Shown: positions 16,631 through 32,286 of the stretch, piece by piece
Layout of the letters: each line of letters starts with the position of its first letter
Position numbering within the stretch: position 1 is the stretch's first letter
NCBI GenBank assembly: GCA_001822815.1
Contig: MHSR01000024.1
Coordinates: 1 to 35,681, forward strand
Length of the DNA: 35,681 nt
Reading direction: 5' to 3'
Source of the DNA: Candidatus Terrybacteria bacterium RIFCSPHIGHO2_01_FULL_43_35
Lineage (GTDB): Bacteria; Patescibacteriota; Minisyncoccia; Terrybacterales; GWB1-40-14
Made by a program: the position numbers and the translations under genes
The notes under the pieces: model-generated
The model's database searches: none
Seen by the model: the letters and a program-made list of their open reading frames with translations, nothing else
What the model was told of the DNA's origin: nothing

Positions 16631-16654
16631 TAATTTGAAGTTGTTTGGGCTATA

Positions 16655-16781
16655 ACCCCGTTAGAAATTTACGATGATATTTAGCCGTGATAAATGGGAC
16701 GTCCTTTCCCAACCGTTGCGCATGCCCAGAGGATAAACTTTACAGCAATATTCGATGATTGCTGTAAATTTCTAACGGGGT
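16655..16781. mobile_element. MITE-like 127-bp element with 18-bp perfect terminal inverted repeats
   Basis: ACCCCGTTAGAAATTTAC ... GTAAATTTCTAACGGGGT; flanked by ATA on both sides; no ORF inside. Confidence 0.6.
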
Positions 16782-16797: not shown

Positions 16798-17532
16798 ATG
16801 AAAAAGCTGAAAAATAAAAAGGCTATTGTTGTTATCGCTTTTGGCGGATCGGTTCTTGCTCCCAAAGACCTTGATATTGCACTGCTAGCAAAACTTCGTT
16901 CTTTACTCCTTGCATCAATTAAATCACAAAAATCTAAATTCGTTATTGTTGTCGGCGGCGGAAACCCGGCCAGAAAATATCAGGCTATCGCCAAAAAACT
17001 AAACCCCACCGCAATGCAAGCCGACCTCGACCGTATCGGTATAGCTTCAACCAAACTTAATGCGGAATTAATACGGGTTATATTCGGTAAAAATTCTCAT
17101 TCAAAAATAATCGATTCTGAATCATTGGTTAAAAATACAAAATCTCCTTTAACTGTCATATCCGGCTGGAATCCCGGCTATTCAACCGACGCCGTAGCCG
17201 TCAGAACGGCCAAAAAGCTTAAAATAGGTGCGGTGATTATTGCCGGAAAGCCCGCTTACGTTTATAACAAAGACTTCACTAAATTTAATAACGCCAAACC
17301 ATTTGCCTATATTTCTTGGGCTAACTATATAAAACTTATTCCCAAACAGTGGTCGCCGGGATTAAAGACGCCAGTTGATCCCATAGCCGCCAAAGAAGCG
17401 CGGCTCCACAATATTGACGCCATAGTAATAAGCGGAAAGGATATGAAAAATATCGCTTCTCTGCTTAGAGGTCGCGCCTTCCGCGGAACACTAATTTCAA
17501 ACCGCCCGCGACAAGGTATTGCCCAAAAATAG
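16798..17532 (+). CDS. pyrH: Amino-acid-kinase-family UMP kinase
   Basis: IAFGGSVLAP, VIVVGGGNPARKY, ISGWNPGYSTDAVAVRTAKKL, TPVDPIAAKEA. Confidence 0.75.
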   Translation: MKKLKNKKAIVVIAFGGSVLAPKDLDIALLAKLRSLLLASIKSQKSKFVIVVGGGNPARKYQAIAKKLNPTAMQADLDRIGIASTKLNAELIRVIFGKNSHSKIIDSESLVKNTKSPLTVISGWNPGYSTDAVAVRTAKKLKIGAVIIAGKPAYVYNKDFTKFNNAKPFAYISWANYIKLIPKQWSPGLKTPVDPIAAKEARLHNIDAIVISGKDMKNIASLLRGRAFRGTLISNRPRQGIAQK

Positions 17533-27088: not shown

Positions 27089-27165
27089 GGACGATTAGCT
27101 CAGTTGGTTAGAGCGTCTCGTTTACACCGAGAAGGCCGTAGGTTCGAGTCCTACATCGTCCACCA
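27089..27165 (+). tRNA. tRNA-Val (anticodon TAC), CCA encoded
   Basis: Acceptor GGACGAT/ATCGTCC; loop TTTACAC. Confidence 0.92.
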
Positions 27166-27274
27166 CACATTTTGCCCAAGAGCTAAGCGATTGGTTGCAA
27201 AATGTAGTGTCCCGACATAACGTCGGGACTACCTTCACCCACCGCAAATCGCTTAAGTCCGATGGACTTACGGC

Positions 27275-27351
27275 GGCGCCGTCGTCTAGAGGCCCAGGAT
27301 GCCTCCCTTTCAAGGAGGAGATCAAGAGTTCGAATCTCTTCGGCGCTACCA
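27275..27351 (+). tRNA. tRNA-Glu (anticodon TTC), CCA encoded
   Basis: Acceptor GGCGCCG/CGGCGCT; stem CCTCC-CTTTCAA-GGAGG. Confidence 0.9.
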
Positions 27352-27415
27352 CCCAGCCCTAACCCAGCCCCAATTCTTAATTTGAACTGGGTAGAGCTGG
27401 ACAAAAAAACAAAAC
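27351..27415. repeat. CCCAGCCCCAATT-family repeat, copy in tRNA spacer
   Basis: ACCCAGCCCTAACCCAGCCCCAATTCTTAATTTGAACTGGGTAGAGCTGGACAAAAAAACAAAAC; about 53 of 56 positions shared with 28334-28397. Confidence 0.85.
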
Positions 27416-27433
27416 ACAGCATCTTGATCGCGT

Positions 27434-27508
27434 GGGCCCGTAGCTCAACGGTAGAGCGGAGGCCTTTTAAGCCAAGGGTTGAGAGTTCGAGTCTCTCCGG
27501 GCTCACCA
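27434..27508 (+). tRNA. tRNA-Lys (anticodon TTT), CCA encoded, imperfect anticodon stem
   Basis: Good acceptor, D and T arms; loop CTTTTAA; stem GAGGC/GCCAA has two mismatches. Confidence 0.75.
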
Positions 27509-27560
27509 CCTTTCAAGATGCAGTAGTAGGTCGTGGGTTCGAATCCCTCTCGGCCTGCCA
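27509..27560 (+). pseudogene. tRNA 3'-half remnant
   Basis: GTCGTGGGTTCGAATCCCTCTCGGCCTGCCA T-arm/acceptor/CCA-like end without a D arm or 5' acceptor strand. Confidence 0.6.
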
Positions 27561-27565
27561 ATCGC

Positions 27566-27636
27566 TGCGGGATCGTCTAACGGTAGGACAGCAGCCTTTG
27601 GAGCTGAATATCTTGGTTCGAATCCAAGCCCCGCAG
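27566..27636 (+). tRNA. tRNA-Gln (anticodon TTG)
   Basis: TGCGGGA...CCCCGCAG; loop CTTTGGA; U1, discriminator G. Confidence 0.85.
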
Positions 27637-27830
27637 CTCTTCAATTTTCGCTCCGCTCAAATTTCAGAGTCTTCAGTTTTCTCTTGCGAGAGAAAACTTC
27701 CGACCCCCAAACTGCGGAAATTGAAGATCCTGATGAGCGAAGCGAAGAAGGACGACGAAATGCTCCTTTACAAAAGATACACCAGCCGGTGCCGGCTGGC
27801 CGCCAACAGCGGAAAATTAGGCACATCAGT

Positions 27831-27907
27831 GGGCCCTTAGCTCAGTTGGTTAGAGCAACAGTCTTATACACTGCACGTCCTAGGTTCGAGTCCTAGAGGG
27901 CCTACCA
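27831..27907 (+). tRNA. tRNA-Ile (anticodon TAT), CCA encoded
   Basis: Acceptor GGGCCCT/AGGGCCT; anticodon loop CTTATAC. Confidence 0.85.
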
Positions 27908-27961
27908 ACCCCACGCACTCATCCAAGGCCACCTTAATATCGCGGCCTTAAACATATCGGT

Positions 27962-28044
27962 GCCGAAGTGGCGGAACTGGCATACGCGGAGGTCTCAAAC
28001 ACCTCTCCGAAAGGTTAGGAGTTCAAATCTCCTCTTCGGCACCA
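27962..28044 (+). tRNA. tRNA-Leu (anticodon CAA), CCA encoded
   Basis: GCCGAAG/CTTCGGC; GAGGT-CTCAAAC-ACCTC; class II variable arm. Confidence 0.92.
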
Positions 28045-28055
28045 AACTCTCTTGT

Positions 28056-28132
28056 GCGGGGATGGCGAAACTGGCAAACGCGGTAGATTTAGGATCTACT
28101 TTTTGGGGGTTCGAGTCCCTCTCCCCGTACCA
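28056..28132 (+). tRNA. tRNA-Leu (anticodon TAG), CCA encoded
   Basis: GCGGGGA/TCCCCGT; GTAGA-TTTAGGA-TCTAC. Confidence 0.88.
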
Positions 28133-28143
28133 ACCCGCAAAGT

Positions 28144-28227
28144 GGGTAGGTTGAGCAGGTGGTGAGCTCAGCTGACTGTAAATCAGTAGCTTCGGCTGAA
28201 AAGGTTCGATTCCTTTCCTGCCCACCA
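28144..28227 (+). tRNA. tRNA-Tyr (anticodon GTA), CCA encoded
   Basis: Loop CTGTAAA; long variable arm; acceptor GGGTAGG/CCTGCCC. Confidence 0.88.
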
Positions 28228-28249
28228 AAAACGAATAACACCACACGGT

Positions 28250-28333
28250 GCCGAGGTGGCGGAATGGCATACGCGTCCGGCTTAAACCCGGATGCCGAAA
28301 GGCTTGCGAGTTCGAGTCTCGCCCTCGGTACCA
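28250..28333 (+). tRNA. tRNA-Leu (anticodon TAA), CCA encoded
   Basis: TCCGG-CTTAAAC-CCGGA; class II variable arm. Confidence 0.92.
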
Positions 28334-31563: not shown

Positions 31564-32286
31564 TCAAAATTGTGGTACTTCTAACCAGGAAAGAATTGTG
31601 AGGCTGACGGTATCAATTACGATGCTGAGATCTGTTACGGCTTCATTATAAAACGCTTGTGTCTCAATGGTAGTCTGACCCGATACAGGAAAATCTTTTT
31701 TTACTGGCCGAATCTGACAAGTACCAGTATTGCTTCCTATATTATTTATCGTTTCTGGCCCAGTATATCCCGAATCTTCAGCAAACCGCAACAATGCAGT
31801 ATCCACACAAGCTTCGGCAAGCGCCGAACTTCGTTCTTTATATTCCGCGTCAAGAATTTGGGAGCGAGTTAAAAATCCTGCTTGATTCAAACCAATAGCG
31901 ACTGTGAGAAGAATTACCGAAATCACAATTACGGTCATTAAAGCCACAAATCCTCCGTTAGAGGTTGCGGTTGCCGATGGCAACCTACCTCTCACGGAGT
32001 GAACCCGCCCCGTTAGAGACAGGAAGCGTTTGAGGCGATTTTTTAGATAACGCTTACCCATACCGGATTTTAAATATTTCTCTCTAACAAATGCATCATG
32101 TTCATTAAGACAAGCTTCAAAATAGATGATTTCCAAGGGACTTCGTCCTTTGGTGGAACTGACAAGGTTTGCATTATGTTCACTCAAACGCTTCCGTAAA
32201 TCACTGGTAGCGCCAGTATACCATTTGCCATCTTTTTTGCTTTGTAAAACATATGCATAATACATGGTCGTCTCTAACGGGGTCAT
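31564..32286 (-). CDS. Fusion ORF: GIY-YIG endonuclease domain followed by PilX-like prepilin
   Basis: MYYAYVLQSKKDGKWYTGATSDLRKRLSEHN...KSGMGKRYLKNRLKRFLSLTG, then NGGFVALMTVIVISVILLTVAIGLNQAGFLTRSQILDAEYKERSSALAEACVDTAL. Confidence 0.88.
   Translation of the reverse strand: MTPLETTMYYAYVLQSKKDGKWYTGATSDLRKRLSEHNANLVSSTKGRSPLEIIYFEACLNEHDAFVREKYLKSGMGKRYLKNRLKRFLSLTGRVHSVRGRLPSATATSNGGFVALMTVIVISVILLTVAIGLNQAGFLTRSQILDAEYKERSSALAEACVDTALLRFAEDSGYTGPETINNIGSNTGTCQIRPVKKDFPVSGQTTIETQAFYNEAVTDLSIVIDTVSLTILSWLEVPQF
31953..31999. repeat. Imperfect hairpin between the GIY-YIG cassette and the PilX-like body
   Basis: CTCCGT-t-AGAGGT-tgc-GGTTGCC-gat-GGCAACC-t-ACCTCT-c-ACGGAG. Confidence 0.8.
32008..32282 (-). 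mobile_element. Putative GIY-YIG mobile cassette bounded by 13-bp perfect inverted repeats
   Basis: CCCCGTTAGAGAC (32008-32020) / GTCTCTAACGGGG (32270-32282); encodes only the GIY-YIG domain; splits the N-terminus of a prepilin gene. Confidence 0.7.

Follow-up and report, generated by a model that had tools for sequence, protein, structure and literature searches.

Element upstream of pyrH

The window, a stretch of 35,681 nucleotides, contains a short inverted repeat without an open reading frame (ORF) upstream of a pyrH-like gene. The question raised by this locus is whether the repeat is a mobile element or a leader of pyrH and, if mobile, what moves it. The initial annotation had proposed a MITE whose autonomous partner is a GIY-YIG cassette elsewhere in the window. 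The features of the locus are as follows.

16656..16780, no strand assigned: MITE CCCCGTTAGA...TCTAACGGGG, 125 bp, no ORF
16651..16655, no strand assigned: left copy of the 5-bp target duplication TATAA
16781..16785, no strand assigned: right copy of the target duplication TATAA
16656..16672, plus strand: left terminal inverted repeat CCCCGTTAGAAATTTAC
16764..16780, minus strand: right terminal inverted repeat GTAAATTTCTAACGGGG
16739..16768, no strand assigned: subterminal hairpin TTTACAGCAAT/ATTGCTGTAAA, competing with terminal pairing
16798..17532, plus strand: pyrH-like UMP kinase gene downstream of the MITE, with synteny in L185-L187

An 18-bp inverted repeat, ACCCCGTTAGAAATTTAC/GTAAATTTCTAACGGGGT, is found at 16655-16672 and 16764-16781, as the initial annotation had claimed. 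However, sister copies put the ends of the element at CCCC/GGGG (16656-16780), leaving perfect terminal repeats of 17 bp with one chance pair outside. The outermost A/T pair is part of the flanking sequence, and the target duplication is therefore the 5-bp direct repeat TATAA rather than the 3-bp ATA suggested earlier. The hairpin does use bases of the right arm, as had been noted. No ORF of at least 80 aa lies inside the inverted repeat, and the single-strand folding of the element is far above that of shuffled sequences, with an RNA z of -5.3 and a DNA z of about -4.3. The terminal core CCCCGTTAGA, at one mismatch or fewer, occurs 7 times in the window (mean of 1.57 and maximum of 5 in shuffles). 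Short, ORF-less, bounded by terminal inverted repeats, flanked by a target-site duplication (TATAA/TATAA), and belonging to a family with many dispersed copies and empty sites, the element has the characteristics by which MITEs are recognized. Together with the next base, the right TATAA copy forms TATAAT, which resembles a -10 hexamer and lies about 11 bp upstream of the pyrH start; a promoter scan found no full sigma-70-like pair at this copy, so the possible -10 box is read from the TATAAT hexamer itself.

The pyrH upstream region was compared among relatives. No such element is present between the conserved upstream gene and pyrH in G002 and G003, and a different one is present in G001, a member of the same genus, in which the pyrH start codon is occupied by CCGGGTAGTGAAAATTCG...CGAATTTCTACTACCCGG, with TATG on both sides. 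The sequence upstream of pyrH in the window was thus inserted and is not a conserved leader. The outcome that the initial annotation had named as contrary to its reading, a pyrH leader RNA conserved across the clade and lacking other copies, was not found, and a cis-regulatory pyrH RNA was rejected, since the element is absent at that place in all three relatives and has no Rfam match.

Element family in the host genome

The host genome (827 kb, 98% complete) was read as stretches around matches. The genome-wide search proposed in the initial annotation revealed 46 exact CCCCGTTAGA sites, compared with 2 for the reversed pattern, and about 30 elements of 59 to 277 bp are built from these sites. 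They comprise subfamilies of 59-73, 80, 93, 125-132, 138-140, and 202-204 bp and two GIY-YIG cassettes (275 and 277 bp), and include three more full-length copies sharing 74% to 79% identity with the window copy. Exact 4-bp duplications flank 23 of 33 elements, compared with 2.2 on average and at most 8 when the right flanks are shuffled; two 5-bp cases bring the count to 25 of 33. A 59-bp element with the duplication CTTG is nested in a copy of the 69-bp family, the uninterrupted form of which, L020, reads as a related empty site for this insertion, and three 203-bp copies each contain an 80-bp element.

With dispersed copies, duplications, nesting, and presence or absence at pyrH, the sequences support the MITE reading, which together with its putative GIY-YIG partner holds and extends further: across Patescibacteria and other metagenomic lineages, GIY-YIG genes are found alone between terminal repeats, with 4-bp duplications. 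The core CCCCGTTAGA is indeed common to the pyrH-upstream element and the GIY-YIG cassette at 32008-32282. However, the pyrH copy shares only this terminal 10-bp core with the cassette and hence belongs to another subfamily. Both ends of the window's own cassette, CCCGTTAGAGACGACC and GCTTCCTGTCTCTAACG, are found in another MITE, L017:498-635, which has a relative in L012 and has 16 to 17 bp in common with the cassette at each end. The cassette, itself a mobile element, is probably the "autonomous" partner of the MITEs.

In the seven host cases with TTGA duplications, the outer copy usually reads on as TTGAC(A/T), with a -10-like hexamer 15 to 18 bases on. The promoter score reaches at least 9 in six of the seven, compared with 14% of other TTGA sites.

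Start-codon MITEs in G001

G001 contains 60 CCNGGTAGTGAAAAT sites, compared with 0 in the control. These sites form MITEs of about 130 bp with the ends of G001's own GIY-YIG element (L058, 306 bp). The duplication is mostly TATG, and about 25 of 31 copies share one orientation and coincide exactly with start codons, among them those of pyrH and rpmJ-like, rpmC-like, and pgk-like genes; in the same loci, about 10.6% of TATG sites look like starts. Because nearly all of the duplications are TATG, flank matching is weak evidence of duplication in G001 (25 observed versus a shuffled maximum of 23), and the start-codon position is the stronger fact. Taking the host genome and G001 together, the insertions thus occupy -35 boxes, a -10-like box, and start codons, reflecting either targeting or the survival of harmless insertions.

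The arms of the G001 MITEs co-vary. Among 23 distinct copies, 99.3% of the arm cells pair, and the co-variation score exceeds those of all 500 shuffles and all slid versions, a count that is not a probability since the copies are related. G-T and A-C pairs at positions 10-11 are constant in all 28 copies, and wholesale arm-to-arm copying therefore does not account for everything. Pairing within the inner hairpins is kept although their sequences differ. Internal boxes, ATCTGG and TAGAAATTCG, are complementary to the MITEs' own ends (L188-L217, alignment A4), so that, as in the copy upstream of pyrH in the window, pairing of the ends may face competition from subterminal hairpins.

GIY-YIG cassettes and their terminal repeats

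The cassette region of the window contains the following features.

32008..32282, minus strand: GIY-YIG cassette, 275 bp, terminal core as in the MITE, sole ORF encoding a PF01541 protein
32008..32286, minus strand: GIY-YIG coding region MTPLETTMYYAYVLQ...RFLSLTG, with the ATG in the flank and the last residues encoded by the terminal repeat
31953..31999, no strand assigned: 47-bp related mini-element CTCCGTTAGAGG...CCTCTCACGGAG adjoining the GIY-YIG cassette

The GIY-YIG protein of the window is above the Pfam cutoff for PF01541. The cassette products are 85 to 95 aa long, vary little or not at all in their catalytic columns (Y, Y-x-G, R, H, and E), and are under purifying selection (median dN/dS of 0.19). 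Several cassettes carry in-frame stops. By sequence, the closest PDB structures are 1zg2 and 1ywl (UPF0213), followed by SLX1 structure-specific nucleases, and the nearest named NCBIfam model is that of a group I intron endonuclease, below its cutoff. The AlphaFold model predicted from one sequence is poor (pLDDT of 64). The GIY-YIG pattern search was based on an alignment of 7 sequences, one of 15 being too diverse.

With the GIY-YIG protein as the query, named genomes yielded 501 relatives, the best 80 of which were kept. These 80 come from Patescibacteria, Omnitrophota, WOR-3, Planctomycetota, Desulfobacterota, and others, the hosts being mostly metagenome-assembled genomes, some of which may be mis-binned. 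Repeats of the (N)CCCGTTAGA type, 267 to 314 bp apart, bound 78 of 81 loci (the best 80 of 501 and one viral-contig locus), a proportion that is not a rate for all GIY-YIG genes, as the best 80 were selected for their similarity to the cassette proteins; in a sample drawn without regard to repeats, many of the 49 loci lack such a repeat around the GIY-YIG gene. Repeats together with an exact duplication of at least 4 bp were found at 36 of 78 GIY-YIG loci and at 1 of 820 control spots, and 4-bp duplications were found at 34 of 72 loci (shuffled mean of 10, maximum of 19). Only about half of the cassettes keep an exact duplication, and the window's own cassette has none. The duplication is often TGAA within ATGAA, the left copy of which starts the GIY-YIG frame (MNPVRD...); at the right end, GGGA plus TGAA provides the GIY-YIG stop and a regenerated ATG of the host gene, e.g., a nucleotidyltransferase-like gene in L030.

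More distant GIY-YIG genes are bounded by other repeat types, including CCCAGTAAGAC, CCCAGAAATAC, CCAGGTAGTG, CCCCCACACC, CCCTCACC, and others, several with duplications of TATG, TGTG, or TAAG. With groups assigned by eye from the terminal sequence, repeat type changes 8 times on the GIY-YIG protein tree, compared with 26 times in shuffles, and 4 times, compared with 18, after the repeat-coded C-terminal end is trimmed. Repeat type thus follows GIY-YIG phylogeny. One element with CCCTCACC ends, L079 in G004, has direct repeats of 9 bp (GTGATTAGC) rather than 4 bp at its flanks, and the GIY-YIG genes of L049 and L050 lie near a different dispersed repeat, of the TTCTTCGCTNCGCTCAGAATGAC type.

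Many of 57 relatives are also enriched in the core CCCCGTTAGA, the highest count being 165 sites, in G011; among the G011 sites listed, many pairs are only about 42 bp long and are almost bare hairpins. Genomes with a cognate GIY-YIG gene have a median of 27 sites, compared with 2 in those without one (P = 0.002).

Candidate mover and alternative explanations

The pyrH-upstream sequence is a non-autonomous copy (MITE) from a family of very small DNA elements. We consider it probable that the GIY-YIG-only cassette of about 275 bp is the autonomous form and that GIY-YIG is the mover: this protein is the sole product of the shortest complete element, its phylogeny tracks the repeats, and sites are more numerous in genomes with a cognate gene. 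The dispersed families, duplications, related empty sites, link between repeat type and GIY-YIG, purifying selection, and start-codon and -35 bias are directly supported. From these sequences, we infer the GIY-YIG protein as the catalyst, the folded ends as its substrate, and the stagger of the cut. The nuclease would recognize paired or folded ends, consisting of CCC...GGG tips and type-specific inner sequence, would free or copy the element, and would cut a short target (TTGA, TATG, TGAA, TTTA, or TATAA) with a 4-nt stagger; repair of this cut would then produce the 4- to 5-bp duplication. Copies would persist where the duplication recreates the struck signal, i.e., a -35 box, a -10-like box, or a start codon.

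More tentatively, the GIY-YIG protein of about 90 residues may be a self-sufficient transposase that reads folded ends, targets single-stranded or open promoter and start regions, and seeds MITEs. The arms would then co-vary copy by copy because folded ends rather than an exact sequence are recognized, and dozens of MITEs would be seeded in essential genes, at their -35 boxes and start codons. To our knowledge, no GIY-YIG protein catalyzes terminal-inverted-repeat transposition alone, and a literature search, whose coverage excluded bioRxiv and most subscription journals, retrieved no paper on a GIY-YIG transposon or transposase.

Alternatively, genuine MITEs may be moved by a conventional or domesticated transposase that is encoded elsewhere and acts on all CCC...GGG ends, with GIY-YIG being a frequent passenger, which we regard as rather unlikely. 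Elements moved by DDE transposases typically have terminal repeats and 4-bp duplications. About ten genomes have at least 12 sites and no close cognate GIY-YIG gene (e.g., 34 sites in G022, 27 in G023, 25 each in G041 and G050, and 17 in G012), and such MITE-rich genomes leave room for an unlinked enzyme; conversely, G031 has a cognate GIY-YIG gene and no CCCC-type site. Moreover, tRNA genes lie exactly between CCCCGTTAGA-type repeats in the relatives G022 and G012 (L181:579-681, L184:512-647, L065, and L069), as if carried by the element, and cargo carriage in trans is therefore possible. However, repeat type tracks GIY-YIG phylogeny in several independent types, which is unexpected for a mere passenger. 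In addition, no transposase was found between the repeats among the pairs read in the host genome, G022, G041, G050, and G012, which were all short and, for G041 and G012, took in only part of the mismatched partners; on this basis, a conventional insertion sequence parent, or a DDE family element with its transposase between the repeats, was rejected. The Y1 (PF01797) transposase was not found in the host genome, G001, G022, G050, or G012, and there was one match in G023. With no Y1 in the host genome and target duplications present, an IS200/IS605 or REP-RAYT origin was also rejected.

It is improbable that the copies are primarily kept as leader RNAs or regulatory elements, for example by allowing reinitiation or by letting ribosomes hop from AUG to AUG across the hairpin, their mobility being secondary. 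The one-orientation, start-codon position of about 25 of 31 G001 copies fits this explanation, as do their co-varying arms (0 of 500 shuffles scored as high), wobble pairs included, and the persistent pairing of the inner hairpins. However, duplications, nested insertions, and nonorthologous positions indicate mobility, the Rfam search found no match for the elements, and the pyrH copy of the window lies outside the start codon and is absent in relatives. The co-variation may equally come from folded-DNA recognition or from arm-to-arm copying by template switching.

The least probable of the explanations considered, and a very doubtful one, is that GIY-YIG is a homing cassette that cuts MITE copies or empty sites and recombines in, the spread of MITEs being old and of another cause. 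GIY-YIG is a classical homing-nuclease fold, the group I intron endonuclease is the nearest named model (below its cutoff), and the nonduplicated flanks of cassettes suggest recombination between copies. Against this, the insertion sites have only about 4 bp in common and the same kind of duplication is found at MITEs and cassettes. L030 looks like a fresh cassette insertion, with no earlier element at the site and a new duplication. A homing endonuclease of a self-splicing intron was rejected because the element of about 275 bp is almost all ORF, has no Rfam intron match, and shares only about 4 bp among sites. A phage origin (one viral-contig match, without such repeats) and a plasmid origin (no matches in plasmids) were likewise rejected.

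Comparison with known systems

Like the present elements, those of IS200/IS605 and REP/RAYT are very small and have subterminal or palindromic hairpins. However, they use Y1 (HUH) transposases and make no target duplication, whereas Y1 was not found in the host genome here. UPF0213 and SLX1 proteins are the closest to the cassette protein among solved structures by sequence, and we know of none that is part of a terminal-repeat element. Translational bypass (byp) elements are hairpin inserts between matching short direct repeats containing a codon; in contrast, the present copies lie at start codons, and the downstream ATG can start the gene.

Prokaryotic MITEs such as Correia, MITEAba12, and others are likewise short and ORF-less, with terminal inverted repeats, a target duplication, and many intergenic copies upstream of genes (PMC10969869). 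In the present family, however, a transposase-bearing parent was not found, the partner is a GIY-YIG-only element, the G001 arms co-vary copy by copy, and the start-codon and -35 bias is strong. Penelope-like elements are also mobile elements using a GIY-YIG nuclease, but they are eukaryotic retroelements with a reverse transcriptase (PMC3846280), whereas GIY-YIG is the only gene here and the ends are inverted repeats. In CPR rRNA genes, GIY-YIG-bearing insertions fitting no intron class and short ORF-less insertions of unknown type have been described, and GIY-YIG appears to fall outside spread by homing (PMC11270868). The text of that paper mentions neither inverted repeats nor MITEs. These insertions may be the same elements as those described here.

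If GIY-YIG moves these elements, they represent a new kind of transposon, in which a fold of homing, repair, and restriction nucleases is the only enzyme of a DNA transposon about one-third the size of small insertion sequences. The GIY-YIG elements of about 275 bp would then be among the smallest autonomous transposons, the abundance of GIY-YIG genes in Patescibacteria would be explained, and the unclassified short and GIY-YIG-bearing rRNA-gene insertions (PMC11270868) might be explained as well. The idea can be tested directly with one DNA of about 280 bp. MITEs and GIY-YIG cassettes of this kind insert into start codons and promoters in ultra-small bacteria, whose streamlined genomes can hold dozens of such insertions placed precisely at start codons and -35 boxes; consequently, predicted gene starts, leaders, and promoters in these organisms may need rereading.

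Prepilin-like and tRNA genes

At 31564-32286 of the window (minus strand), the GIY-YIG frame continues past both terminal repeats and the 47-bp mini-element and joins a prepilin-like gene, so that a GIY-YIG-pilin fusion may be encoded. Repeated in-frame half-repeats (NLTGFT...) were found in prepilin leaders of G022 (L064), where they come from TTTAACGGGGTTTAC units upstream of the GFTLLE motif. A long pair at this locus was rejected as an element in its own right, since it consists of a MITE, one end of which is mismatched, and of half-repeats within prepilin genes. The window also contains a tRNA gene cluster at 27089-28330.
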